Below are positions 1-10,820 of a stretch of 64,000 bases of DNA, one piece after another (position 1 is the first letter of the stretch; every line of letters starts with the position of its first letter). The notes under the pieces were generated by a model. That model was not told where the DNA came from. It searched no databases and worked only from the letters and a program-made list of their open reading frames with translations. Source of the stretch: Cupriavidus malaysiensis (lineage in GTDB: Bacteria; Pseudomonadota; Gammaproteobacteria; Burkholderiales; Burkholderiaceae); contig NZ_CP017755.1 in NCBI RefSeq assembly GCF_001854325.1, positions 372,001-436,000 on the forward strand, in the 5' to 3' direction. The position numbers were made by a program, and so were the translations under genes.

Positions 1-708
1 GTCGAGCGACTTCGGCCGGTTCACCATGCGCGCGGTGGCCGCATCGACCAGCTCCTTGTCCCAGCGCACGTCGGGGAACTCAAGCGCCACCTGTGCCGCC
101 ACCTCGTCCCACATCACCATCGCGTGGCGCTGGGCATTGGACTTGGTGATCACGGTGAGCAGCTTGCGCGGGCGCGACTGCGCCAGCCGGAAAGCGAAGC
201 GCAGGATGCGCTCGACGCCCACGCGCGTCATCATCGACACATCGGTGGCGGCCTCGATCGGATGGCCCTGGTGCACGCGTCCGCCCACGCCCGAGTACTC
301 GCCTTCCGAGTTCTCGCGCACGATGACCCAGTCCAGGTCTTCCGGCGCGCAGCGCTTGAGCGGGGCGTCGATGCCCGGCAGGATGCGGGTCGGGCGCACG
401 TTGGCGTACTGGTCGAAGCCCTGGCAGATCTTCAGGCGCAGGCCCCACAGCGTGATGTGGTCGGGGATCTGGTTGTCGCCGGCCGAGCCGAACAGGATCG
501 CATCCTTGCCGCGCAAGGCGTCGAGGCCGTCGGCGGGCATCATCGCGCCGTGCTGGCGGTAGTAGTCGCCGCCCCAGTCGAAGTCCTCGAACTCGAAGCG
601 GAAGCCGGCGCCGGCGTCGGCCAGCGCCGCCATGACTTCCCGCCCCGCCGGCACCACCTCCTTGCCGATGCCGTCGCCGGGAATGGTTGCGATCTGGTAG
701 GTCTTCAT
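1..708 (-). CDS. Tartrate/D-malate dehydrogenase family protein (partial, C-terminus missing)
   Basis: The first 236 codons of an NAD-linked, divalent-metal-dependent beta-decarboxylating dehydrogenase of the isocitrate/isopropylmalate superfamily. The reading frame runs off the left edge; the family is about 355-365 residues, so roughly one third is absent. The protein begins MKTYQIATIPGDGIG, with the family GDGIG loop at residues 11-15. LFGSAG (72-77), LKICQGFDQYANVRP (92-106) and VRENSEGEYSG (130-140) match the tartrate/D-malate (TtuC/DmlA) branch rather than LeuB. An AGGAGA ribosome site lies 8 bases before the ATG. The gene is divergent from a LysR gene, the usual dmlA/dmlR arrangement, so induction by D-malate or tartrate is likely. 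The exact substrate cannot be read from sequence alone. Confidence 0.88.
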   Translation of the reverse strand, partial: MKTYQIATIPGDGIGKEVVPAGREVMAALADAGAGFRFEFEDFDWGGDYYRQHGAMMPADGLDALRGKDAILFGSAGDNQIPDHITLWGLRLKICQGFDQYANVRPTRILPGIDAPLKRCAPEDLDWVIVRENSEGEYSGVGGRVHQGHPIEAATDVSMMTRVGVERILRFAFRLAQSRPRKLLTVITKSNAQRHAMVMWDEVAAQVALEFPDVRWDKELVDAATARMVNRPKSLD

Positions 709-790
709 CTTCCGTCTCCTGGTCAGGGTTGCCGCTGCATGGCGCGAGGCGGATTCTGGCCGGTGGACGAAGTTTTGGATCGGCACTAAA

Positions 791-807
791 GTTAAACCAT
801 TCTTAAC
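791..807. promoter_or_regulatory. Probable LysR-type operator between dehydrogenase and LysR genes
   Basis: GTTAA and TTAAC form a perfect inverted repeat around a 7-base centre in the AT-rich part of the divergent intergenic region. This fits the symmetric half-sites typical of LysR regulators. Binding by the adjacent LysR protein is inferred. Confidence 0.45.
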
Positions 808-884
808 CTGGAATTAACAGTGAGGTTCGCAGTGAAGGTCGTGATGAGGTGCCCGGCAAGGGTCACCGCGAGGAACGCAGCAGG

Positions 885-1808
885 ATGACCGCCAACAGCG
901 CGATCCAGCCCGCCGAACTGGGCTTCTTCGCCGCGCTCGCGGGCGCCGGCAGCCTCAGCGCCGCCGCCCGCGACCTGGGCATCACCACGGCGGCCGTCAG
1001 CAAGCGGCTGGCGCAGATGGAAGCGCGCATCGGCATGCCGCTGGTGGTACGCACCACCCGGCGCATGAGCCTGACGCCGGAAGGCGAGGTGGTGCTGGAG
1101 CACGCGCGCCGCATCCTCGGCGAGATCGACGACCTCGGCCAGTTGCTGACCAGCGCCAAGGGGCGCCCGAGCGGCCTGCTGCGCGTCAACGCCACGCTGG
1201 GCTTCGGGCGCATGCACGTGGCGCCGGTGATCGCCGCCTACAGCCGTGCCTACCCCGATGTCGACGTCCAGCTCCAGCTCTCCGCCGACCCGCCGCCGCT
1301 CAGCGAGGATGCCTTCGACGTCTGCGTGCGCTTCGGCGAGCCGCCCGACGCGCGCATCGTCGCGCGCCTGCTGGCGCCCAACCGCCGCCTGCTGTGCGCC
1401 GCGCCCAAATACCTGCGCGACCACGGCGCCCCGCAATCGCCGGCCGACCTGCCCCGGCACAACTGCATCGGCATCCGCCAGGGCAGTGACGCCTACGGCG
1501 TCTGGCGCCTGACCCCGGTCAAGGGCGCCAAGGCGCGTACCGAGTCCGTGCATGTGCGCGGCAACCTCACCACCAACGACGGCGAGATCGCCGTCAACTG
1601 GGCGCTCGAAGGCCACGGCATCGTGCTGCGCGCCGAGTGGGACGTCGAGCGCTACCTGCGCAGCGGCCGCCTGGTGCAGGTGCTGCCGCAGTACGCCACG
1701 CCCGAAGCGAATATCTATGCGGTGTACCAGCAGCGCCACCAGCTGTCGTCGCGCATCCGGCTGTTCGTGGATTTCCTGGCGGCGAAGTTCGCGGCCTTCG
1801 GGCGGTAG
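885..1808 (+). CDS. LysR family regulator, DmlR-like
   Basis: A 307-residue LysR-type regulator. The N-terminal winged helix-turn-helix (about residues 8-65, with SLSAAARDLGITTAAVSKRL) is followed by a substrate-binding domain with the usual LLRVNATLGFGRMHVAPVI start. I chose the ATG at 885 because homologues begin close to the HTH; a GTG at 849 in the same frame would add 12 residues. It is divergent from the tartrate/D-malate dehydrogenase gene and very probably activates it, as DmlR does for dmlA. The family assignment is firm; the ligand is inferred from the neighbour. Confidence 0.88.
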   Translation: MTANSAIQPAELGFFAALAGAGSLSAAARDLGITTAAVSKRLAQMEARIGMPLVVRTTRRMSLTPEGEVVLEHARRILGEIDDLGQLLTSAKGRPSGLLRVNATLGFGRMHVAPVIAAYSRAYPDVDVQLQLSADPPPLSEDAFDVCVRFGEPPDARIVARLLAPNRRLLCAAPKYLRDHGAPQSPADLPRHNCIGIRQGSDAYGVWRLTPVKGAKARTESVHVRGNLTTNDGEIAVNWALEGHGIVLRAEWDVERYLRSGRLVQVLPQYATPEANIYAVYQQRHQLSSRIRLFVDFLAAKFAAFGR

Positions 1809-2049
1809 GGGAGGGCAGGCGGGTGGAGGCGAGTTGCAGCGTGCCGGTGTTTTTGTGGCATATGCGGCATGCCGCTGGCACGTGTCTACTGGCAGCGCCT
1901 GGCCGCGCATCCGTTGGGCAGTGCCGGCTTCGCGCGGATCGCCGCAGGACAGCAGGCGTGGCTGGATACGGTGCAGGGCCAGCTGGCAAGGGTAGTGGCG
2001 GGGACCGGCAGCCGCTGAAGCGAAGGCCGGCCCATCCGCGCTGTGGCCG

Positions 2050-2736
2050 TCAACCGCGCGCGCCGTCCAGTTCCGCCCCGAAGCGTTGCAGGCGCGGCAG
2101 GTAGTAGTGCTCCGGATCCAGCGAGAAGGCGACCCGGCGGGTCCGTCCCATGATTTCCTCGCGGGGGAAGAAGCCGTAGTAGCGCGAATCGGCGCTGTTG
2201 TCGCGGTTGTCGCCGAGCATCAGGTACTGGCCGGCCGGGACCGGCACCGGCCCGAACGAGCGGCGCGGGCTCGGGGCCAGCGGTGACAGCCGGACCGTAT
2301 GCGCCATGCCGCCGACCGCTTCGGTGAAATAGGCGGCGCCGGCATCGGGGGCGACGTTCGCGGCGGTGGCGTCCAGCGGCTGGTACGAGGCGCGCTCGCC
2401 GTTGATGTAGAGCACGTTGTCACGCATTGCCACGGTATCGCCGGGCACGCCGACGATGCGCTTGACCAGCAGCGTGTGCGCGGCGGCGGAATCGATGGTG
2501 ACGATGTCGCCCCGCTGCGGCTGGCTCAGGTAGGCCAGGCGCTGGTGCGTGAGCGGGATGCGCAGGTCGTAGGCCATCTTGTCCACCAGGATGCGGTCGC
2601 CGATGCGCAGGGTCGGCAGCATGGAGCCGCTCGGCACCACGTTCCAGTCGGCGATCGCGCCACGGAACAGCACCATCAGGAACAGGAAGGCGGCAAGGCC
2701 CTTGTTCTCTTTCCACAGCTTGGCGAGGAGTTGCAT
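2050..2736 (-). CDS. lepB: Signal peptidase I (additional, non-operon copy)
   Basis: A 228-residue type I signal peptidase that cleaves signal peptides at the outer face of the inner membrane. It has one N-terminal membrane segment (about residues 12-27), then the catalytic-serine box VPSGSMLPTL, box C (GDRILVDKMAY), the catalytic-lysine box LLVKRIVGVPGDTV, and the C-terminal GDNRDNSADSRYYG box. All catalytic features are present. The frame stays open 50 codons further upstream, but MQLLAKLWKENKG is the natural start. It is monocistronic, back to back with a J-domain gene, and not next to lepA or rnc, so it is probably a second signal peptidase. No good ribosome site precedes the ATG (the upstream is pyrimidine-rich). 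Confidence 0.9.
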   Translation of the reverse strand: MQLLAKLWKENKGLAAFLFLMVLFRGAIADWNVVPSGSMLPTLRIGDRILVDKMAYDLRIPLTHQRLAYLSQPQRGDIVTIDSAAAHTLLVKRIVGVPGDTVAMRDNVLYINGERASYQPLDATAANVAPDAGAAYFTEAVGGMAHTVRLSPLAPSPRRSFGPVPVPAGQYLMLGDNRDNSADSRYYGFFPREEIMGRTRRVAFSLDPEHYYLPRLQRFGAELDGARG

Positions 2737-2915
2737 AGGGAGATGAGGGGAGAAGGCCGCGCTGGCGGCCGAGGTTGGCAAGAGCCCTAGAGTACACCCG
2801 AACCGGTACGCCCGAGCCGTGCCTGCGGGGGGCTGTCGCGGTGCAGCAAAAGCGCTCCGGCCCATGCTAGGATGAGCGGCGTCCATCGCAGCACCCGCCC
2901 ACCCGCCAGCGCACC

Positions 2916-3533
2916 ATGACCACTCTCTACGCGATCCTCGGCGTGCCGGAGCACGCTTCTCTGGAAGAGATCAAGCGCGCCTACCGCCGCGCCGCGATGA
3001 AGTCCCACCCTGACCGCAACCTGGGCCGCGAGGCGGAGGCACATGCCGCCTTCCAGGAGATCCGTGATGCCTACGCCATTCTGTCCGACCCGGTGCAGCG
3101 CCAGGTCTACGACGAGGTGTACGCGCGCGAGATGGAGCGCTGGCAGGCCGAGCACGAGGCCGAACAGGAACAGGAGCGCGCGGCGCAACGCGAGGCCGAG
3201 CGCGCCGCGCAGCAGCACTACGAGGCCATGGTGGCGCTGGCCATGCGCTTTGCCGGCGACGGCCACAACCGCGACGTGATCTTCGGCGTGCTGCTGGGCC
3301 GGGATTGCGAGGCGGAACTGGCCGCGCGCATCGCGGACAGCGTGTGGGCCTTGCAGGAGTCACGGCGGGCCGAGGCCGCGGCAGCGGAAGCCCGGGCCCG
3401 GGCGGAAGACGAGGCCGGGGCCGAAGGCGAGGCACCGGCGGCTGCCGCGGGCGCGGAGGCGCAGTCCCGGCGGCACACCACCCCCTTCGAGTCCTTCTGG
3501 CACGGGCTGTTCGGCCTGCACGCGCAGCGCTGA
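2916..3533 (+). CDS. J-domain (DnaJ-like) co-chaperone
   Basis: A 205-residue cytoplasmic protein with an N-terminal J domain (residues 3-66) carrying the essential HPD tripeptide at 31-33, which would stimulate the ATPase of a DnaK partner. The rest lacks the Gly/Phe region, zinc fingers and C-terminal substrate domains of DnaJ. Instead there is a long Glu/Ala/Arg-rich, probably coiled-coil stretch (about 70-110), a short helical region, a low-complexity Ala/Glu tract, and a C-terminal tail ([17 protein letters not shown]). It is therefore a class III (J-domain-only) co-chaperone whose client cannot be named. It is transcribed away from the signal peptidase gene. Confidence 0.85.
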
Positions 3534-3721: not shown

Positions 3722-4297
3722 CTACAGGATGGAACGGTATTGGCCCAGGCCCTTGACGGTTTGCAGCAGGCCCTGGCGTTGCAGCACGTCGAGGTAGCGG
3801 TCGACATCCATGGGCGGATGCTTGAGCTGCGCGCGCTGCTGCCGGGCGGCGGCAACGACAGCGGCCGCATCCAGGTCGAACAGGTTGTCGATGAATTCGT
3901 CGGGGTGCCGGGCCTCGATGCCGAACGGTGCCAATGCGTCGTCCGGAAAGTCTTTCCGGTTGAAGGTGACGATGACGCTGGCACCGCAACGAATGGCGGC
4001 GGCGAGTACGTGCCGGTCGTCTGGGTCCGGTAACCATAGTTCGACGGCAAGTGCCTCGTAGTCAAGGACCAAGGCATCAGGGATGGCGCGATCCATCAGG
4101 TCCGATGTGCGATCCAGTTGCTCGCGCGTCAGGTCTTCGCGGTTAGCCAGCAGATTGCGCTTCCATTCGTCGTGGATCTGCGGACTCCACCGTGCACGGA
4201 ACCGCCCCGACAGGCCCAGCCACATGAGAAAGTCGCGCAGTGGCGCTGGATACAGCACGCAAGCGTCATACAGGGCTGTGAATGGCGAATGCCTCAT
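3722..4297 (-). CDS. PIN-domain toxin of a type II toxin-antitoxin pair
   Basis: A 191-residue PIN-fold protein, probably an Mg-dependent ribonuclease. Acidic active-site positions are visible: ALYDACVLYP near the N-terminus, IHDEWKRNLL about residue 43, and PDPDDRHVLAAAIRCGASVIVTFN, where the D-x-x-H-hxAA pattern and T-F-N strand are typical of PIN nucleases. Its ATG overlaps the stop of the upstream HTH gene by four bases (ATGA), so the two are translationally coupled in antitoxin-toxin order. It is larger than classic VapC (about 130 residues) and has a C-terminal helical extension of about 50 residues. The role is inferred from family and gene order. Confidence 0.8.
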   Translation of the reverse strand: MRHSPFTALYDACVLYPAPLRDFLMWLGLSGRFRARWSPQIHDEWKRNLLANREDLTREQLDRTSDLMDRAIPDALVLDYEALAVELWLPDPDDRHVLAAAIRCGASVIVTFNRKDFPDDALAPFGIEARHPDEFIDNLFDLDAAAVVAAARQQRAQLKHPPMDVDRYLDVLQRQGLLQTVKGLGQYRSIL

Positions 4298-4758
4298 TCG
4301 TAACCCATGTCAGACACCTGGGCTTGATGCGCCAACTCGGCCATGGCTTGCTCACTGGCCTGATCGCGCGCGGCCTTGAACTGCATCAGGTCCGAAAAGC
4401 GCACGCGGCGGTGCTTGCCAGCCCGATGGAACGGCAGCGCGCCGTCTTCCAGCAACTTGACCAGGTGCGGCCGGGAGACGTTGAGCAGGTCGGCCGCTTC
4501 CTGCGTGGTCAACTCGGCATGAACAGGCACGACCTTGACGGCATTGCCGCCGGCCAGTTCGGCCAGGATGTCCACCAGCAGGCGGAGCGCCGATGTTGGC
4601 AGCTCCACCTGATGAGCTTGATTCTTGTCATCGAAGATCTGGATGCGCTGGGTCTCGACCTGGGTGGCCAGATAAGCCGCCAAGGCGCGTTGACCTTGCA
4701 CGGCAGCCTGCACTTCCCGTTCCACGGGTAGCGTTACTCTCGAATAGGCGGCGGTCAC
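4294..4758 (-). CDS. Excisionase-type HTH antitoxin partner of the PIN protein
   Basis: A 154-residue protein with a C-terminal excisionase/MerR-like helix-turn-helix (LTTQEAADLLNVSRPHLVKLLEDG, then HRRVRFSDLMQFK). The N-terminal half (about 1-75) probably binds the toxin and dimerises. The start is a GTG with an AGGAG site seven bases before it; the nearest upstream ATG is followed at once by a stop in another frame. Coupled to the PIN gene. Three direct repeats just upstream are candidate sites for autorepression. Confidence 0.8.
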   Translation of the reverse strand: MTAAYSRVTLPVEREVQAAVQGQRALAAYLATQVETQRIQIFDDKNQAHQVELPTSALRLLVDILAELAGGNAVKVVPVHAELTTQEAADLLNVSRPHLVKLLEDGALPFHRAGKHRRVRFSDLMQFKAARDQASEQAMAELAHQAQVSDMGYE

Positions 4759-4828: not shown

Positions 4829-4966
4829 GAATGCCAAGCGATCCTGCCTTCTACGATTGCCTTGAGGCTGGGGGATCGGCTGGCATGCGGTCGTCAGCCC
4901 TCGTTTGATCCCCATGACTCCGCTACCGACTCAAGTGCACCGTCGCAATCTGTGCGTGCTCCTGCT

Positions 4967-6115
4967 TCAGTTCGCAGCGGATTGTCCGCCGCGCCCGTCC
5001 GCCGATGGCGCGCTGGCCGGGTAGCGGACCCACCGGCGGCGCCATGCCGCATTGATCGGGTCCGACCACGACCAGGCCACGCACGCTCCCACCGCGACCG
5101 AGAGCACCAGGTAGGCAGCCAGCAGCACCGTCTTCGCATCCCCGGCGATCATGGCCGCAGGCATGAGCGTGCGCATCGAGCCCAGCACCAGCAGGTGGAA
5201 CAGGTAGATCTCGTAGCTCCGGCGCCCGCAGGCCGCCAGTGCCCGGGCCGGCCGCGACAAGGGCGCGGCGCGGCCGCTTCCCAGCAGCAGCAAGGCTGTG
5301 GCCAGGGCCATTGCGCTGACGCCCAGCACATGGCTTTGCGCGATCGGCCAGGCCAGGTACAGCGCCGCCATCGCGGCCGCGACCAGCGCGCGGACGGCGC
5401 GCTGCTGCAGCACGGGGAACGGCCGCTGCCGTGCCAGCACCGCCGCGCAGCAGCCGATCGCGATGGCGTCGAAGCAGGCCGGATAGGCGTACAGGAATCC
5501 GCCCTCGTCGCCCGCGTGGGCGTAGCGGTACAACGGGCCGATGCAGATCGCCGCCAGCGCCAGGGCCAGGCGGACCGACGGGCGCCGCAGGCCCACGCAG
5601 GCCAGCGGGAACAGCAGGTAGAACACCGCCTCGACCGACAGCGACCACAGCACGCCCAGCGGATAGTTGATCCAGCCGTGCTGCGTGATGAGGACGTTCA
5701 TCCAGAAGGTCGCGCCGGCGAGATTGACGGTCCATAGCGATACCGGCGCGCCCGCGCGGTTGTCGAAGATCCGCACCCCCGCCAGGGCCAGCGTGTCCAC
5801 CGCCAGCAGTGCCAGGAACAGGCCGGGCAGGATGCGTGCCGCGCGCAGGGCGTAGAAGCCGGGCAGCCGGATCCGCTCCAGGCTGCCCCAGCGCTCGAGG
5901 GCATTGGTGGTGATCAGGAAGCCGGAAATGACGAAGAAGATCGTCACGCCGTAATTGCCGTTGCGGGCCACGGCGCGCACGGCGGGCCAGCCCAGGGTTG
6001 CCGCCAGCACGGTGTCCTGCAGCGGGTAGGCGATATTGAAATGGTGGAGCAGCACCAGCAGGATCGACACGCCGCGCAGCATGTCGATCCGCCCATTGCG
6101 CGGATCGGGATGCAC
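4967..6115 (-). CDS. Acyltransferase 3 (OafA/YrhL-type) membrane protein
   Basis: A 382-residue integral membrane O-acyltransferase with about ten hydrophobic segments. The N-terminus carries the family R-x-D-x-LRG pattern (GRIDMLRGVSILLVLLHH), with the proposed catalytic histidine in LLHHF, then FFVISGFLITT and FYALRAARILPGLFLALL. Such proteins acylate lipopolysaccharide, exopolysaccharide or peptidoglycan sugars on the periplasmic side. The start is a GTG only 7 bases after the stop of the OXA beta-lactamase gene, so it may be the last gene of the blaI operon. The acceptor is unknown; a cell-envelope function would fit the beta-lactam context, but that is speculation. Confidence 0.85.
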   Translation of the reverse strand: MHPDPRNGRIDMLRGVSILLVLLHHFNIAYPLQDTVLAATLGWPAVRAVARNGNYGVTIFFVISGFLITTNALERWGSLERIRLPGFYALRAARILPGLFLALLAVDTLALAGVRIFDNRAGAPVSLWTVNLAGATFWMNVLITQHGWINYPLGVLWSLSVEAVFYLLFPLACVGLRRPSVRLALALAAICIGPLYRYAHAGDEGGFLYAYPACFDAIAIGCCAAVLARQRPFPVLQQRAVRALVAAAMAALYLAWPIAQSHVLGVSAMALATALLLLGSGRAAPLSRPARALAACGRRSYEIYLFHLLVLGSMRTLMPAAMIAGDAKTVLLAAYLVLSVAVGACVAWSWSDPINAAWRRRWVRYPASAPSADGRGGQSAAN

Positions 6116-6122
6116 GGCGGTC

Positions 6123-7001
6123 TCAGTCCTTCTTGCTGATGCTGATGCCGGTGCCGGTGCCGGTGCCGGTGCCGGTGCCGGTGCCGGTGCCGGTGCCGGC
6201 GAGGGTGGGGAACTCGCGGAGGATGGCGTCGCGTACCCGCACGCCCGCGTTCGGCGTCGTGGCCTGCTCGTCCTGGATCAGGCGGGCGAACACCAGTTTC
6301 CGCTCGCCTTTCTCCGCCCAGCCCACGAACCAGCCGTAGGCATGGTCGCGGTCATAGCTGCCGTCCGAGCCGGGCGATCCGGTCCCGGTCTTGCCGTACA
6401 CGCGCCATCCGTCCGGGCTCTGCTCCTGCGCGAAGAGGCGCTCGGCCATGTCGTAGGCATGCGCGCCGACGGGCAACTGCCGGATGGCGATCTTGCGCAG
6501 GAAGGCGATCTGCTCCAGCGGCGAGATGCGCAGCGAGGCATTGAACCACGCACCCTGCGTGCCGTTCTGCTTGCCGGGTTCGCCCGAGACATCCTGGTTG
6601 CCGTACTGGAAGGCCGACGTGTATTGCTGGAGGCGATCCTGCCCCAGGCGCGCGGCGAGCTGCTGCGAGTACCAGAACACGGAGTAGTGGATCCAGCGGG
6701 CCGGGTCCACCGGCTGGCGCCACGGCTCGCCGCCCCAGTCCGGATAGCCAGGCTGGAACGGCCACGCGGGCGTGTGTTCGTCCTGCAGGATGCCGGCGTC
6801 GAAGCCCATCAGGGCGAGCGGAAGCTTGAAGGTGGATGCCGGCGTATAGCGCTCGGCGCATTGGCCCTGCTGCAGCAGCACGCGTCCGTCGACCGCGTCG
6901 GCGACGACGGTGCAGAGGGTGAGGGCGGAGGCCGGCGCGGCGCACGGCCCGCAAAGGATCAGGGCGAGGGACATCCCGCGCCAGTTCAGTCTTGGCTTCA
7001 T
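6123..7001 (-). CDS. Class D (OXA-type) beta-lactamase with Gly-Thr repeat tail
   Basis: A 292-residue periplasmic serine beta-lactamase. The signal peptide ends about APASA (residue 26). All class D signatures are present: S-T-F-K at 56-59 (nucleophile Ser56, carboxylated Lys59), S-V-F at 107-109, YGN at 133-135 and KTG at 204-206. The C-terminus is odd: after FPTLAG there is an uninterrupted (Gly-Thr)8 run at about 269-284, made by a perfect hexamer tandem repeat in the DNA, then GISISKKD. It lies 80 bases after a BlaR1-like sensor and BlaI repressor, so beta-lactam induction is expected. It is probably an intrinsic chromosomal enzyme, as in Ralstonia and Cupriavidus; the substrate profile cannot be predicted. 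Confidence 0.93.
   Translation of the reverse strand: MKPRLNWRGMSLALILCGPCAAPASALTLCTVVADAVDGRVLLQQGQCAERYTPASTFKLPLALMGFDAGILQDEHTPAWPFQPGYPDWGGEPWRQPVDPARWIHYSVFWYSQQLAARLGQDRLQQYTSAFQYGNQDVSGEPGKQNGTQGAWFNASLRISPLEQIAFLRKIAIRQLPVGAHAYDMAERLFAQEQSPDGWRVYGKTGTGSPGSDGSYDRDHAYGWFVGWAEKGERKLVFARLIQDEQATTPNAGVRVRDAILREFPTLAGTGTGTGTGTGTGTGTGISISKKD
6145..6198. repeat. Hexanucleotide tandem repeat in the OXA gene
   Basis: Eight perfect copies of GTGCCG (6151-6198) plus one degenerate unit (ATGCCG, 6145-6150). On the coding strand they encode alternating Gly-Thr. The 6-base unit means copy-number change lengthens or shortens the protein tail without a frameshift. Confidence 0.95.
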
Positions 7002-7081
7002 GGCAATCGATCAAGGGTGGAGCACGGAGGAACGGCCGCACCGGCGCCGGGGCCGGCGCGGCCGGGGAGGAGGCAGCGCGG

Positions 7082-8824
7082 CTACGCCGGCTGTTGGCGC
7101 GCCTTGAGCAGCACCAGGGTCAGGTCGCGTCCCTGCACCCGGACGCGCATGACCAGGCAGCGGCCCGCCGCAGGCGACATGCCGGTCTTGGACAGTTGGA
7201 TGTCCCAGCCCCGGCGGCCGACCAAGGGGTTGGTATTGCGGTAGTGGAGGGCGCCGCTCGCGATGTTGACGGTTTCCGCCGGCCGCGTGCTGTCGCGCGC
7301 GATCTCCGGATAGGCGGCTGCCGCGTTCACGATGCGCTCGATGTCGGCAGCCGTGGAGCGATTGGCCGGCGACAGGCCGGTCGGTTCGCGCAGCGTCGTG
7401 TGCTTCAGGCCGAGCTGTGCCATCTTGTCGCGCAAGGACCGCTCGAACGCCGGCGTACCGCCGGGATAGCTGCGCGCCAGTGCGTGGGCGGCCCGGTTGT
7501 CCGACGACATCAGCGCCAGCTTCAGCAGCGTGCCCAGCGTCGCGCTGGCGCCCACTGGCAGTTGCGACACGCTGTTGCGGGTGGCCTCGGCATCCTCCCG
7601 CTCGATGCGGACGGGGCGGGCGAGGTCCGGGGCGGTATCCAGCACCACCATGGCCGTCATCAGCTTGGTCAGCGAGGCGATCGGGACTTCCTCATGCTCA
7701 GCCCGTCCGATCAGCTTGGCCCCCGAGGCGGCATCCACCACCAGCACGTGGGCCGCCCCGCTGGCCTTGACCAGCGCCTCGATGCCGGCCAGGCCGGAGC
7801 CGGACGGCGCGGTCGGGGCGGCCGGGACGGTCCATGCGGCGGCGCAGGCCAGCCCCAGCGCCGCGGCAAGCCAGGGGGCCGCCAGCGCGGCACGCGAGGG
7901 CGCCGGCGCCGGGCGCAGCAGGCGGCGGATGCGCTGGGCCAGTGCCCCGCCGCGCGCCTGCTGCGCCAGGTCGAGGCCGGCGGCCGGCACCGGCATGCCG
8001 CGGCTGAGGCTGTCGAGCGCGCGCGCCAGGGTGCGCGGCGCGCCGATGCAGGCCGCGGCCATATCGTCGGCGATGTGCTCGCGCTCCTCGCCCAGGCGGC
8101 GCGACAGCCACCACACCGAAGGGTGGAAGAACAGCAGTGCCTCGATCACGCGCTGCAGGAAGTTGACCAGGTAGTCGAGGCGCCGGACATGCGCCAGCTC
8201 GTGCGCCAGCAGCGCCTCCAGCAGGTCGGCCGGCATGCCGCTCACCAGGCCGGCGGGCACCAGCACCACGGGCCGCCACCAGCCCGCCGTCACGGGGCTG
8301 GACAGGCCGGGCGCGATGCGCAGCGCGACGCCGCGCGGCAAGCGCAGCCGGCCCGATAGCGCCTGCACGCGCGCTGTCCATGCGGCATCCGTCCAGGGCC
8401 GGCTGGAGCGGATCACCTGCCGCAGCCAGGCCATGCCCAGCAGCAGCCGCAGCGTCATCCCGCTCACGCCCGCCAGCCACGCCATCGCCAGCCAGGCGCG
8501 CCACGGGAGCGCCGGCGCGGCCATGGCCGGCATGCCGGCGAGCACGCCGGACCAGGTCGCCGGCAGCGTGACGATGCCGGCGGCGCCATCCGGCAGCACG
8601 GCCGATGCCTGCCAGGTGTCGAGTCGGGCGGCCGCGTCCAGCACGGGTACGACCACGCACAGGACGAGGGCGGCGCACAGTACCGCATAGCGGGCACGGG
8701 CGCCGGCAGGGCGCATCCACCACAGCAGGCAGGCCGCCGCGGCCTGGATGCACAGGCCCTGCCACAGGAAGGCCAGCAGCACATCGCCCGCGATCCAGCC
8801 GAAGCCGGCCATCGGGCCACTCAC
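7082..8824 (-). CDS. BlaR1-type M56 metalloprotease fused to a PBP7-like D-Ala-D-Ala hydrolase domain
   Basis: A 580-residue membrane sensor. Residues 1-330 are a BlaR1/MecR1-type M56 peptidase: several transmembrane helices, the zinc motif HELAH at 208-212 with REHIADD downstream, and a last membrane segment at about 315-332. Classical BlaR1 ends in a class D-like penicillin sensor. Here residues 345-580 look like a peptidase S11 (PBP7/DacA-type) domain: SLTK at 384-387, S-D-N at 441-443 and KTG at 546-548, with conserved REPTGLSPANRST. Acylation of this outer domain by beta-lactams would trigger cleavage of the BlaI repressor. Its ATG overlaps the blaI stop by four bases. The domain order is seen directly; sensor function is inferred from the blaI-blaR-bla context. 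Confidence 0.88.
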   Translation of the reverse strand: MSGPMAGFGWIAGDVLLAFLWQGLCIQAAAACLLWWMRPAGARARYAVLCAALVLCVVVPVLDAAARLDTWQASAVLPDGAAGIVTLPATWSGVLAGMPAMAAPALPWRAWLAMAWLAGVSGMTLRLLLGMAWLRQVIRSSRPWTDAAWTARVQALSGRLRLPRGVALRIAPGLSSPVTAGWWRPVVLVPAGLVSGMPADLLEALLAHELAHVRRLDYLVNFLQRVIEALLFFHPSVWWLSRRLGEEREHIADDMAAACIGAPRTLARALDSLSRGMPVPAAGLDLAQQARGGALAQRIRRLLRPAPAPSRAALAAPWLAAALGLACAAAWTVPAAPTAPSGSGLAGIEALVKASGAAHVLVVDAASGAKLIGRAEHEEVPIASLTKLMTAMVVLDTAPDLARPVRIEREDAEATRNSVSQLPVGASATLGTLLKLALMSSDNRAAHALARSYPGGTPAFERSLRDKMAQLGLKHTTLREPTGLSPANRSTAADIERIVNAAAAYPEIARDSTRPAETVNIASGALHYRNTNPLVGRRGWDIQLSKTGMSPAAGRCLVMRVRVQGRDLTLVLLKARQQPA

Positions 8825-9210
8825 TTGCCGTCCCCGCGCAGCAGGTCCTCGATCTCGGCGCGCTCCTGCTGGCTGACGTGACCGCCGCGCAGCGCGGCCA
8901 GCACCAGGGCCTTGCCGGAGCCGGCGAAGGCCTTGCTGATCAGGTCCTTCAGCAGGCTGGCCTGGGTCGACTTCTGGCTCTGTGCGGGCGCATAGACATG
9001 CGAGCGTTCACTCTCGTCGCGCTCCAGCAGGCCCTTGCCGTGCATGATCTGCATCAGCCGCAGGACGTTCGCGTAGGTCAGCTCGGGCCGATCGGCCGCC
9101 ATGGCCTGGTGCACCGCCTTGACCGTGGCCGGTCCGGTTTCCCATAGGGTCTGCAGTACGTCGAGCTCGGCGCTGGTGGGTTTGAGGGGGCTGGCGGGGA
9201 AGCGGTTCAT
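8821..9210 (-). CDS. blaI: BlaI/MecI/CopY-family repressor
   Basis: A 129-residue winged-helix repressor: PTSAELDVLQTLWETGPATVKAVHQAM (helix-turn-helix), ANVLRLMQIMHGKGLLERDE (recognition helix and wing), and a C-terminal dimerisation region. It is the first gene of a left-reading group (blaI, blaR fusion, class D beta-lactamase) and overlaps the sensor gene by four bases. BlaI dimers normally repress the operon until the sensor cleaves them. The AT-rich palindromic stretch immediately upstream is the likely operator. CopY-type copper control is excluded by the lack of metal motifs and by the neighbours. Confidence 0.92.
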   Translation of the reverse strand: MNRFPASPLKPTSAELDVLQTLWETGPATVKAVHQAMAADRPELTYANVLRLMQIMHGKGLLERDESERSHVYAPAQSQKSTQASLLKDLISKAFAGSGKALVLAALRGGHVSQQERAEIEDLLRGDGK

Positions 9211-9266
9211 GGCAGGAGCGGGTGCGGCGCGGCATCGGGATTGCCGGCGCCGCGTGGAGGATTCGA

Positions 9267-9320
9267 TACATGTAGATTATTCTTTCTAGAAAAGAATGTC
9301 TAGAAAATATTGTCTATATG
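9267..9320. promoter_or_regulatory. Probable BlaI operator/promoter region
   Basis: A sharply AT-rich island upstream of blaI in otherwise GC-rich DNA. It holds the perfect palindrome TACATGTA (9267-9274), which matches the TACA/TGTA half-sites of BlaI/MecI operators, TTCTAGAA (9284-9291), and two direct copies of TGTCTA (9298-9303 and 9311-9316). Exact promoter boxes are not assigned. Confidence 0.6.
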
Positions 9321-9364
9321 TGGGGCCCCGACGAGGCCGGCAGCACTGGCGGCACTGACGGGCA

Positions 9365-9445
9365 CAGAGCGGCCAGAGCGGCCAGAGCGGCCAGAGCGGC
9401 CAGAGCGGCCAGAGCGGCCAGAGCGGCCAGAGCGGCCAGAGCGGC
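9365..9445. repeat. Nine-copy 9-bp minisatellite
   Basis: Nine perfect head-to-tail copies of CAGAGCGGC, ending in a degenerate copy. It lies between the BlaI operator and the porin gene, outside any credible gene; frames across it would give only alternating low-complexity peptides. Confidence 0.95.
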
Positions 9446-9743
9446 TAGAGCGTCACCGCAGCGGCCCTGGCAGCGCTGCCGGCACCGCCAGTGCTGTAAG
9501 TACCGCTTGAACCACTCGAATCGTCCGGAAAGTGGCGTGTCAGATGCCTGTCCGCGACTGTTCGCCAGCACGAACAGTCATTTCTTATTCGGGAACAAAG
9601 ATTGTTGTTTTGATGTAATTGTTTCACGGAATTGTCATCTGGTTTTTCCATGATGCGGCCTGCCATGCCAGGGCCCCGCGCGTCGATCCATCCGCGCCGC
9701 GCTCCGGGCAAGGCTCCCTGGCAACACCACATCGAGATTCCAG
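9446..9743. other. Intergenic region upstream of the porin gene
   Basis: No gene is seen. An AT-rich stretch (about 9570-9650) differs in composition from its surroundings and probably holds the porin promoter, but no box pair is clear enough to call. No strong ribosome site precedes the porin TTG. Confidence 0.5.
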
Positions 9744-10820
9744 TTGAAAAAGAACATCGCATTCGCGTTCGCCGCCGCCACGCTCGCCGTGCCCGCCGCG
9801 TCCCAAGCCCAGTCGGCCTCCTCCAGCGTCACCCTGTATGGCATCGCCGATGCCGGCGTCAGCTACCAGAGCCATGTCCAAAGCACCCCCGGCCAGGGCG
9901 GCAACCTGTTCGGCGTGACCTCCGGCGGCCTGTCCGGCTCGCGCTGGGGCATCCGCGGCGTGGAAGACCTGGGCGGTAACCTGAAGGGCATCTTCGTGCT
10001 GGAGAGCGGCTTCAACATCGATACCGGCACCTCCGGCCAGGGCAACCGCCTGTTCGGCCGCCAGGCCTATGTCGGCCTGCAGAGCGAATACGGCGCCATC
10101 ACCCTCGGCCGCCAGCAGAACGCGCTGTTCCAGCTGTTCGGCGACTATGACCCGATGGCGGTCGGCAACAGCTACTCGCTCAACGCGGTCGACACCAACG
10201 GCTTCAACGGCCGTGCCGACAACGCGCTCAAGTACACCGGCACCTTCGGCGGCCTGACCGCCACGGCCTTCTACAGCACCGGCCGCGACAGCACCATCGC
10301 CAACGGCAGCGAAGTACCGGGCAGCTTCCGCGTCGGCACCAACTTCGGCGGCGGCATGGCCTACGCCAACGGCCCGCTGTCGGTGGGCGTGGCCTACGAC
10401 CAGTACCAGGGCACCACCGTGGCGACCTCCGGCGCCAGCGCCCGCCGCGCCGCCGTCGGCGCTTCGTACAGCCTGGGCCAGGCCAAGCTGTTCGCCGGCT
10501 ACCGCTGGCTGCGCGACGAGGTCACCACCGCCACCGCGCGCCACGACAACCTGTACTGGGGCGGTGCCACGTACAAGTTCACCCAGGCCTTCAGCCTGAC
10601 CGGCGCGGCGTACTACACCGATGCGCGCACCGACAGCAAGGACTCGCTGATGTTCGTGCTGGACGCCGACTACGCGCTCTCCAAGCGCACCGACGCCTAC
10701 CTGCTGCTGGGCTACGTGAAGAACCACGGCAACGCCGCCTATGGCCTGACCAGCACCCAGAACACGCTGCCGGGCCAGAACCAGACCGGCGCCATGCTCG
10801 GCGTGCGCCACCGCTTCTGA
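9744..10820 (+). CDS. Gram-negative (beta-proteobacterial) trimeric porin
   Basis: A 358-residue outer-membrane porin of the Omp32/OpcP type common in Burkholderiales. Signal peptide MKKNIAFAFAAATLAVPAASQAQ, then SSVTLYGIADAGVSYQS. The conserved SRWGIRGVEDLGGNLKGIFVLESGF, RLFGRQAYVGL and ITLGRQQN loop region, alternating beta-strands, and C-terminal MLGVRHRF end in the aromatic residue needed for BAM assembly. The start is TTG, as no ATG precedes the signal peptide in frame. It stands alone, with a strong intrinsic terminator 90 bases downstream. The solute cannot be inferred. Confidence 0.92.
   Translation: MKKNIAFAFAAATLAVPAASQAQSASSSVTLYGIADAGVSYQSHVQSTPGQGGNLFGVTSGGLSGSRWGIRGVEDLGGNLKGIFVLESGFNIDTGTSGQGNRLFGRQAYVGLQSEYGAITLGRQQNALFQLFGDYDPMAVGNSYSLNAVDTNGFNGRADNALKYTGTFGGLTATAFYSTGRDSTIANGSEVPGSFRVGTNFGGGMAYANGPLSVGVAYDQYQGTTVATSGASARRAAVGASYSLGQAKLFAGYRWLRDEVTTATARHDNLYWGGATYKFTQAFSLTGAAYYTDARTDSKDSLMFVLDADYALSKRTDAYLLLGYVKNHGNAAYGLTSTQNTLPGQNQTGAMLGVRHRF

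Follow-up and report, generated by a model that had tools for sequence, protein, structure and literature searches.

The closest described relatives of the system reported here are the receptors BlaR1 and MecR1, with the repressors BlaI and MecI, of Staphylococcus aureus and Bacillus licheniformis. In these an M56 protease with the signature HEXXH...ExxxD is followed by a last membrane helix and a penicillin-binding-type domain, a BlaI-type repressor adjoins and a beta-lactamase belongs to the group; the sensors are class D-like in the accessible parts of the published accounts (PMC9834060, PMC7593790). The present analysis concerns a 64,000-nucleotide stretch of Cupriavidus malaysiensis DNA (contig NZ_CP017755.1, positions 372,001 to 436,000; the window), in which one gene encodes an M56 protease fused to a peptidase S11 domain resembling penicillin-binding protein 7 (PBP7, PbpG). 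The fusion shares the features listed above, including equivalents of BlaR1 Asp210 and Arg294, and is most probably a BlaR1-type receptor and protease in one protein with a PBP7-like (S11) sensor. It differs in that the sensor is S11/PbpG-like and not class D, in its Gram-negative host, in the tandem TAGA-N8-TCTA sites before blaI, and in a one-direction operon that includes an acyltransferase gene. The domain make-up, predicted folds, conserved active sites, gene order and operator-like repeats were established by computation, and the signalling interpretation appears well supported by the comparative evidence.

Regulation of the AmpR type is one route to inducible resistance in Burkholderiales. 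Ralstonia pickettii, of the same bacterial order as the source of the window, provides a further comparison. In the available passages of a review of Gram-negative induction, its inducible class D beta-lactamases OXA-22 and OXA-60 are controlled by ORF-RP3, a DNA-binding positive regulator and not a BlaI/M56 pair, and the words BlaR and BlaI occur in the reference list only (PMC3660660). A penicillin-binding protein (PBP) other than BlaR1 acts as a beta-lactam sensor in the PbpP/sigma-P system of Bacillus thuringiensis; in the accessible part of that account PbpP is a PBP in its own right, on which cleavage of the anti-sigma factor RsiP depends, and, unlike the window sensor, has no M56 fusion (PMC8092216). 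Combination of M56 and M23 in one protein is mentioned in an available passage of PMC9662197. No description of an M56-S11 sensor was recognised among the open-access papers listed, judged by titles, the starts of abstracts and some passages.

Domain make-up, fold and active sites of the M56-S11 protein

The plus-strand frame of 7082..8824 is interrupted by a stop, and the real open reading frame (ORF) is minus 8824..7082. The first-pass annotation, made from the sequence alone, had proposed an S11 (PBP7-like) domain in place of the class D sensor, and this assignment was borne out by the Pfam S11 score of 146.7 bits and by the endopeptidases 6azi and 6muq, which are closest to the C-terminal half both among solved sequences (148.6 and 142 bits) and by fold. 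Residues 345-580 were searched for a placement in the class D/BlaR family; no class D family in Pfam or NCBIfam matched them, and a class D sensor misread as S11 was rejected. For the whole fusion protein, no class D family was among the 13 NCBIfam matches listed, and no Transpeptidase match was listed either. Two further families exceeded their Pfam cut-offs on the C-terminal half at far weaker scores, Beta-lactamase2 (41.2 bits, cut-off 22) and Peptidase_S13 (23.7 bits, cut-off 22.8), and the NCBIfam class A beta-lactamase model gave 39.5 bits with a cut-off of 200. The closest NCBIfam model to this half is PbpG (PRK11669) at 194.6 bits, below its cut-off of 294; three other fusions scored 222.2, 204.6 and 244.6 bits against the same model. 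The C-terminal 220 residues thus share fold and motifs with the S11 endopeptidase PbpG/PBP7, and the protein differs from PbpG in being joined to a membrane protease, in scoring below the PbpG cut-off and in relaxed positions described below.

Both Pfam domains are present in each of the best 120 of 4372 matches, the window's own protein included, which speaks against two genes joined by a sequencing error. The window's genome has one M56 protein above the Pfam cut-off. It also has a separate S11 gene at C1:2948777-2949499, so that the fusion is not the sole PbpG-like protein of its genome.

The full-length model had a mean predicted local distance difference test score (pLDDT) of 84.7 and a predicted template-modelling score (pTM) of 0.54. 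Helices were modelled at residues 3-36, 42-75, 108-140, 199-214 (bearing the zinc motif), 217-230 and 235-260; then follow the last membrane helix, which stands between the M56 and S11 halves at 311-331 as the first-pass annotation had expected, and the S11 fold. Poorly modelled parts are 76-104, 277-291 and 332-342, of which the first two correspond in place to the EL1 loop and the autocleavage loop of BlaR1, as far as these are given in the accessible part of PMC9834060. In a Foldseek search with the whole model 6azi and 6muq ranked first, and the S11 domain is 40% identical to 6azi over 222 alignment columns. The six best chains for the N-terminal model were all S. aureus BlaR1 (top expectation value, E, 2.8e-06), followed by Ste24p/ZMPSTE24; since the root-mean-square deviation to BlaR1 is large (13.7-15.2) and identity is 13-16%, this match backs the fold class and not the detail. 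A 15-row profile found BlaR1 at E 6.4e-12.

The HELAH, SLTK, SDN and KTG motifs named in the first-pass annotation all lie at the residues it had given. Residue conservation was counted in the 120 fusions that remained of 121 protein entries (P0001 and the 120 best matches) once P0002, a duplicate of P0001, was dropped; the sample leans to full-length relatives because it comprises the best-scoring of the 4372 matches. H208, E209, H212, D217, E249, D253, A290, R298, S384, T386, K387, S441 and T547 are present in all 120, N443 and K546 in 119, G548 in 112 (the other eight have Ala, changing KTG to KTA) and R301 in 105. Alignment to 8exs indicated that the BlaR1 zinc site, Asp210 (D217) and Arg294 (R301) are retained. 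Positions 430, 413, 421 and 549 are mostly kept in 95 stand-alone S11 proteins and relaxed in the 120 fusions: the stand-alone proteins have R430 in 95/95, D413 in 93/95 and Tyr or Phe at 549 in 94/95. Such relaxation would be expected if drug capture outweighs peptidoglycan turnover, a point that is suggestive only, the rows being related to each other.

The protein is accordingly assigned to both M56 and S11, as one that would work like BlaR1 and yet is not BlaR1. It was not filed as BlaR1 because it has no class D sensor and no recognisable equivalent of Tyr261, and because its N-terminal half scores 56.6 bits against the NCBIfam model blaR1_generic, whose cut-off is 400; Ala for Phe at both presumed P1' positions is a further difference.

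Gene neighbourhoods and operator-like repeats

The first-pass annotation had placed the sensor gene in one group with blaI and an OXA gene, and the grouping holds. The order in the window is blaI, sensor, class D beta-lactamase gene (bla) and acyltransferase, all on the minus strand, with a divergent porin gene beyond blaI, and the blaI stop overlaps the GTG start of the fusion gene by 4 bases. The window BlaI matches S. aureus BlaI (1sd4) at E 1.9e-4 and stays below the cut-offs of the narrower NCBIfam models BlaI_of_BCL (32.9 of 180 bits) and CopY_TcrY (30.3 of 121.95 bits).

The comparison of neighbourhoods took in 29 loci, all distinct: the window, L001-L015, L136-L145 and L147-L149. L146, which duplicates L007, was left out, as was L016, whose 5' part is cut off and which has an esterase gene behind. 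BlaI lies immediately upstream of the sensor in 28 of the 29, with the 4-base overlap in 27 of these 28 (the exception being L148). A beta-lactamase lies downstream in 25/29. Each was assigned to a class by its best phmmer match among representatives, one for each class, which had been checked with NCBIfam. Class D partners occur at ten loci (the window, Achromobacter L001-L003, Bordetella L004, Cupriavidus basilensis L007 and four more), class A at seven (Paraburkholderia franconis and six others; representative 268.9 bits, cut-off 200), class B3 at seven (Janthinobacterium; representative 348.7 bits, cut-off 240, best family THIN) and class C at one (Paucibacter; 513.7 bits, cut-off 415), leaving four loci with none. 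The best-scoring class D family in an Achromobacter genome was OXA-114/258/364. An acyltransferase of the PF01757 type comes next in all ten class D and all seven class A loci and in 0/12 others; at L004 its frame is shorter and it scores low, at 114 bits. The sensor stays and the partner beta-lactamase changes over the 29 loci.

The pattern TAGA-N8-TCTA was found three times in the whole window, with 0.04 occurrences expected by chance. Two or three exact tandem sites lie in the 300 bases preceding the conserved BlaI start at 27 of the 28 blaI loci, and no exact site was found in the other 410,150 bases of the loci. No site with up to one mismatch occurs between 250 bases before and 300 bases after the sensor stop at any of the 29 loci, and a separate operator for the bla gene was rejected. 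Because the sites stand in tandem before blaI and none lies near the sensor stop, one control region probably serves the whole operon, and BlaI probably regulates itself through the putative operator. In the window's own genome the narrower pattern TAGAMANNNNNNTCTA gave seven rows and its reversed control six. Five of the seven form the cluster before blaI and the other two are lone sites on C1, with no other cluster, and a wider BlaI regulon in this genome was not supported. A promoter scan of 4900-9760 returned no sigma-70-like site, and none of the operator terms looked for occurs in PMC7394692. Coordinates are collected in the table.

Features of the operon in the window (positions from the first base of the window; residues of the respective protein)
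Feature	Position	Strand	Remarks
M56-S11 fusion gene	7082..8824	minus	580 aa, GTG start
Peptidase_M56 match	8057..8503	minus	residues 108-256; Pfam 83.1 bits, cut-off 31
HELAH zinc motif	8189..8203	minus	residues 208-212
E249-x3-D253	8066..8080	minus	aligns with BlaR1 Glu242 (zinc ligand) and Asp246
Q289-A290	7955..7960	minus	aligns with BlaR1 autocleavage bond Ser283-Phe284; alignment only
Last membrane helix before sensor	7832..7894	minus	residues 311-331, model
Peptidase_S11 (PbpG-like) domain	7097..7759	minus	residues 356-576, presumed periplasmic; Pfam 146.7 bits, cut-off 27.6
SLTK (SxxK)	7664..7675	minus	residues 384-387; Ser384 presumed acylation site
SDN (SxN) motif	7496..7504	minus	residues 441-443
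KTG motif	7181..7189	minus	residues 546-548
BlaI-type repressor	8821..9210	minus	129 aa; Penicillinase_R 81.5 bits, cut-off 22.6
BlaI A105-A106	8893..8898	minus	aligns with S. aureus BlaI bond Asn101-Phe102; alignment only
Class D (OXA) beta-lactamase	6123..7001	minus	292 aa; bla_class_D_alt 355.7 bits, cut-off 280
Membrane acyltransferase, fourth gene	4967..6115	minus	Acyl_transf_3 (PF01757), Pfam
Candidate operator	9273..9316	none	three overlapping TAGA-N8-TCTA sites, 14-base period; between blaI and divergent porin

Other features were observed around these genes. A perfect 6-base repeat in nine copies (6146-6199) gives the class D enzyme a C-terminal Gly-Thr tail; the enzyme has 292 aa in the window and 274 aa in L007, a relative. 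The stretch from the operator-like sites to the porin gene contains a 9-base tandem repeat of 9.8 copies with 98% matches (9365-9452). Downstream of the operon, on the minus strand at 3722-4758, a gene for a PIN_3 protein stands behind one for an HTH_17 protein with a 4-base overlap, and the two look like a toxin-antitoxin pair. At both contig ends of locus L005 short ORFs (8-247 and 4412-4672) are transposase-like by eye, the left end being the expected place of blaI.

Distribution and origin of the fusion

Occurrence of the fusion in the family is sporadic, with fusion-level matches in 12 of 398 genomes, own included. In the order sample 7 of 399 genomes passed the threshold; four, own included, have full-length fusions, while in the remaining three the related M56 proteins end differently and two of these genomes have a separate close S11 gene. 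The own genome alone passed in the class sample (1/369). These searches scored three first-look candidates per genome, and rare cases can be missed. One fusion is listed under the name Azospirillum sp. B506 (P0011, 56% identity), presumably outside Burkholderiales; the other named fusions lie within that order. Spread mainly by plasmids was weakened as an explanation, as 0 of 75 matching plasmid records cover 80% of the protein and in most of those listed the match is confined to the S11 half. One copy is nonetheless plasmid-borne: in a 442-kb Paraburkholderia caribensis record, annotated as an M56 peptidase, the match runs in pieces over residues 119-575 and covers 64%.

Few genomes of the order have M56 proteins at E up to 1e-12: these occur in 6 of 200 genomes at eight places, including the window. 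Their C-termini are S11 in the window, class D at L159, M23 at L161, HEAT at L157 and ankyrin at L158; the M56 protein of L156 has no further Pfam domain, that of L162 has a TonB_C-like end by eye, and L160 is the eighth place. In two other genomes (L132 and L133) M56 is joined to TonB_C by Pfam, and L087, L130 and L131 have other ends. Exact tandem TAGA-N8-TCTA sites are common to L087 and L130-L132; at L133 one site is exact and two have one mismatch each, and no exact site was found at L156-L161. The locus L159 (G056, same order; 596-3327) resembles the window in carrying, in the same order, genes for BlaI, an M56 protein with a penicillin-binding-type sensor and a beta-lactamase, here of the metallo-beta-lactamase type. 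It differs in that the sensor is OXA-like class D (bla_class_D_alt 277.3 bits, cut-off 280), the M56 half is distantly related, and its 3.3-kb stretch has no TAGA-N8-TCTA.

In a tree of the S11 domain (24 of the 120 fusions and 29 of the 95 stand-alone proteins) the fusions fell into two clades. A single fusion clade, a hypothesis tested after a quick tree had been seen, was rejected by the approximately unbiased (AU) test (p-AU 7.6e-05) because six fusions of the Roseateles/Janthinobacterium type cluster with four stand-alone S11 genes. A single clade was not rejected in the M56 tree (p-AU 0.381; 29 fusion rows and 8 others). Both trees suffer from long branches and incomplete sampling. The S11 tree weakens a single origin of the fusion, with which the M56 tree is compatible; repeated capture, domain replacement and fission are all possible origins.

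Proposed mechanism and alternative readings

We infer the following chain, from acylation by a beta-lactam through transfer of the signal, cleavage of BlaI (with the place of the cut) and binding at the operator to cotranscription and induction. A periplasmic beta-lactam would acylate Ser384 of the S11 domain, and the acylated domain would move relative to the membrane, involving helix 311-331 and the loop 76-104 at the place of BlaR1 EL1. The cytoplasmic-facing M56 zinc site (H208, H212 and E249) would then be able to cut BlaI, perhaps at A105-A106. BlaI would leave the tandem sites at 9273-9316, and the operon blaI-sensor-bla-acyltransferase would be derepressed and transcribed from one control region.

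This reading of the S11 domain as sensor is favoured because of the profile and fold matches, the conserved active sites, and the presence of blaI, a beta-lactamase and tandem sites at nearly all loci (28/29, 25/29 and 27/28, respectively); the first-pass suggestion of a low-molecular-mass PBP fold taken over as sensor in a BlaI/M56 induction system appears the best supported. Several observations weigh against it. Mutation of Tyr261 abolished induction in B. licheniformis, according to the accessible part of PMC9834060. An equivalent appears to be absent from the fusions, as judged from a weak alignment of this helix to BlaR1: no Tyr is found at the aligned position 268 in the 120 fusions (Leu in 52, Arg in 29, Thr in 25), and positions 260-277 have at most one Tyr per position. 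In the same available passages autocleavage of BlaR1 occurs at Ser283-Phe284, BlaI is cut at Asn101-Phe102, and the Phe at P1' of BlaI is described as almost invariant (PMC9834060). By alignment both presumed P1' residues would here be Ala in place of Phe, with Ala in 120/120 sensors (A290) and in all 29 BlaI rows (28 distinct). That both presumed substrates are shifted alike would fit one protease with a smaller S1' pocket. Actual cleavage may lie elsewhere, or the sensor loop may undergo no autocleavage, since the F284A mutant of S. aureus BlaR1 is autocleavage-deficient in that account (PMC9834060). Four of the 29 loci have no adjoining beta-lactamase, three having a TonB-dependent receptor gene and one a hybrid kinase gene, and at the class C locus a gene for a flavin adenine dinucleotide (FAD)-dependent oxidoreductase intervenes between sensor and bla. 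No BlaI was found in the ~345 bases upstream of the sensor of L005 (Paraburkholderia franconis), where a cut gene was possibly missed, and L014 has a single operator-like site with one mismatch. The S11 domain has also kept the catalytic residues that belong to an active D,D-peptidase and, since they are present, the domain may in addition trim D-Ala cross-links.

The retention of residues for D,D-peptidase chemistry, together with the loci that lack a beta-lactamase neighbour (4/29) and the M56 relatives that combine the same tandem sites with TonB_C or other non-PBP ends, would also be consistent with an S11 domain that senses peptidoglycan (D-Ala-D-Ala or meso-diaminopimelate, mDAP, cross-link peptides) or the state of the wall, instead of or besides the drug, the beta-lactamase then being one of several wall-stress outputs. 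We consider this unlikely, as beta-lactamases of four classes accompany the sensor at 25 of 29 loci and the relaxed R430, D413 and position 549 of these related rows suggest, without more weight than that, less need for a peptidoglycan substrate. The protein might instead be mainly an active membrane-anchored D,D-endopeptidase with PBP7 activity, placed with bla under BlaI and using M56 as an anchor or self-processing device. The intact SLTK, SDN and KTG motifs agree with such a role, as does one of the two names given to fusions in source records ('M56 family metallopeptidase' or 'D-alanyl-D-alanine endopeptidase (penicillin-binding protein 7)'). It is nevertheless very improbable: the M56 zinc ligands and D217, needless for a mere anchor, are kept in 120/120 fusions, BlaI adjoins the sensor in 28/29 loci, and KTG has become KTA in 8/120 with the next residue relaxed. 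A broader proposal can be offered tentatively, as conceivable though on balance doubtful. The Burkholderiales BlaI-M56 pair would be a modular receiver of wall integrity, a single core of repressor, operator and protease with swapped periplasmic domains (S11, TonB_C or coiled-coil-like), in which S11 was captured more than once from housekeeping PbpG-type genes, reads both beta-lactams and peptidoglycan peptides, and leads to cutting of BlaI with a changed P1' Ala specificity.

If the fusion is a BlaR1-type receptor with an S11 sensor, the penicillin-sensing part of such receptors would be exchangeable, with a different serine-acylated fold driving the same repressor-cutting switch. Comparing the two sensor folds, each joined to the same type of protease, would make it directly testable how acylation on the outside is read by the protease on the inside. 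Burkholderiales would then have a route to inducible resistance besides those of the AmpR and RP3 types (the latter as given in the accessible part of PMC3660660), standing before beta-lactamases of four classes.

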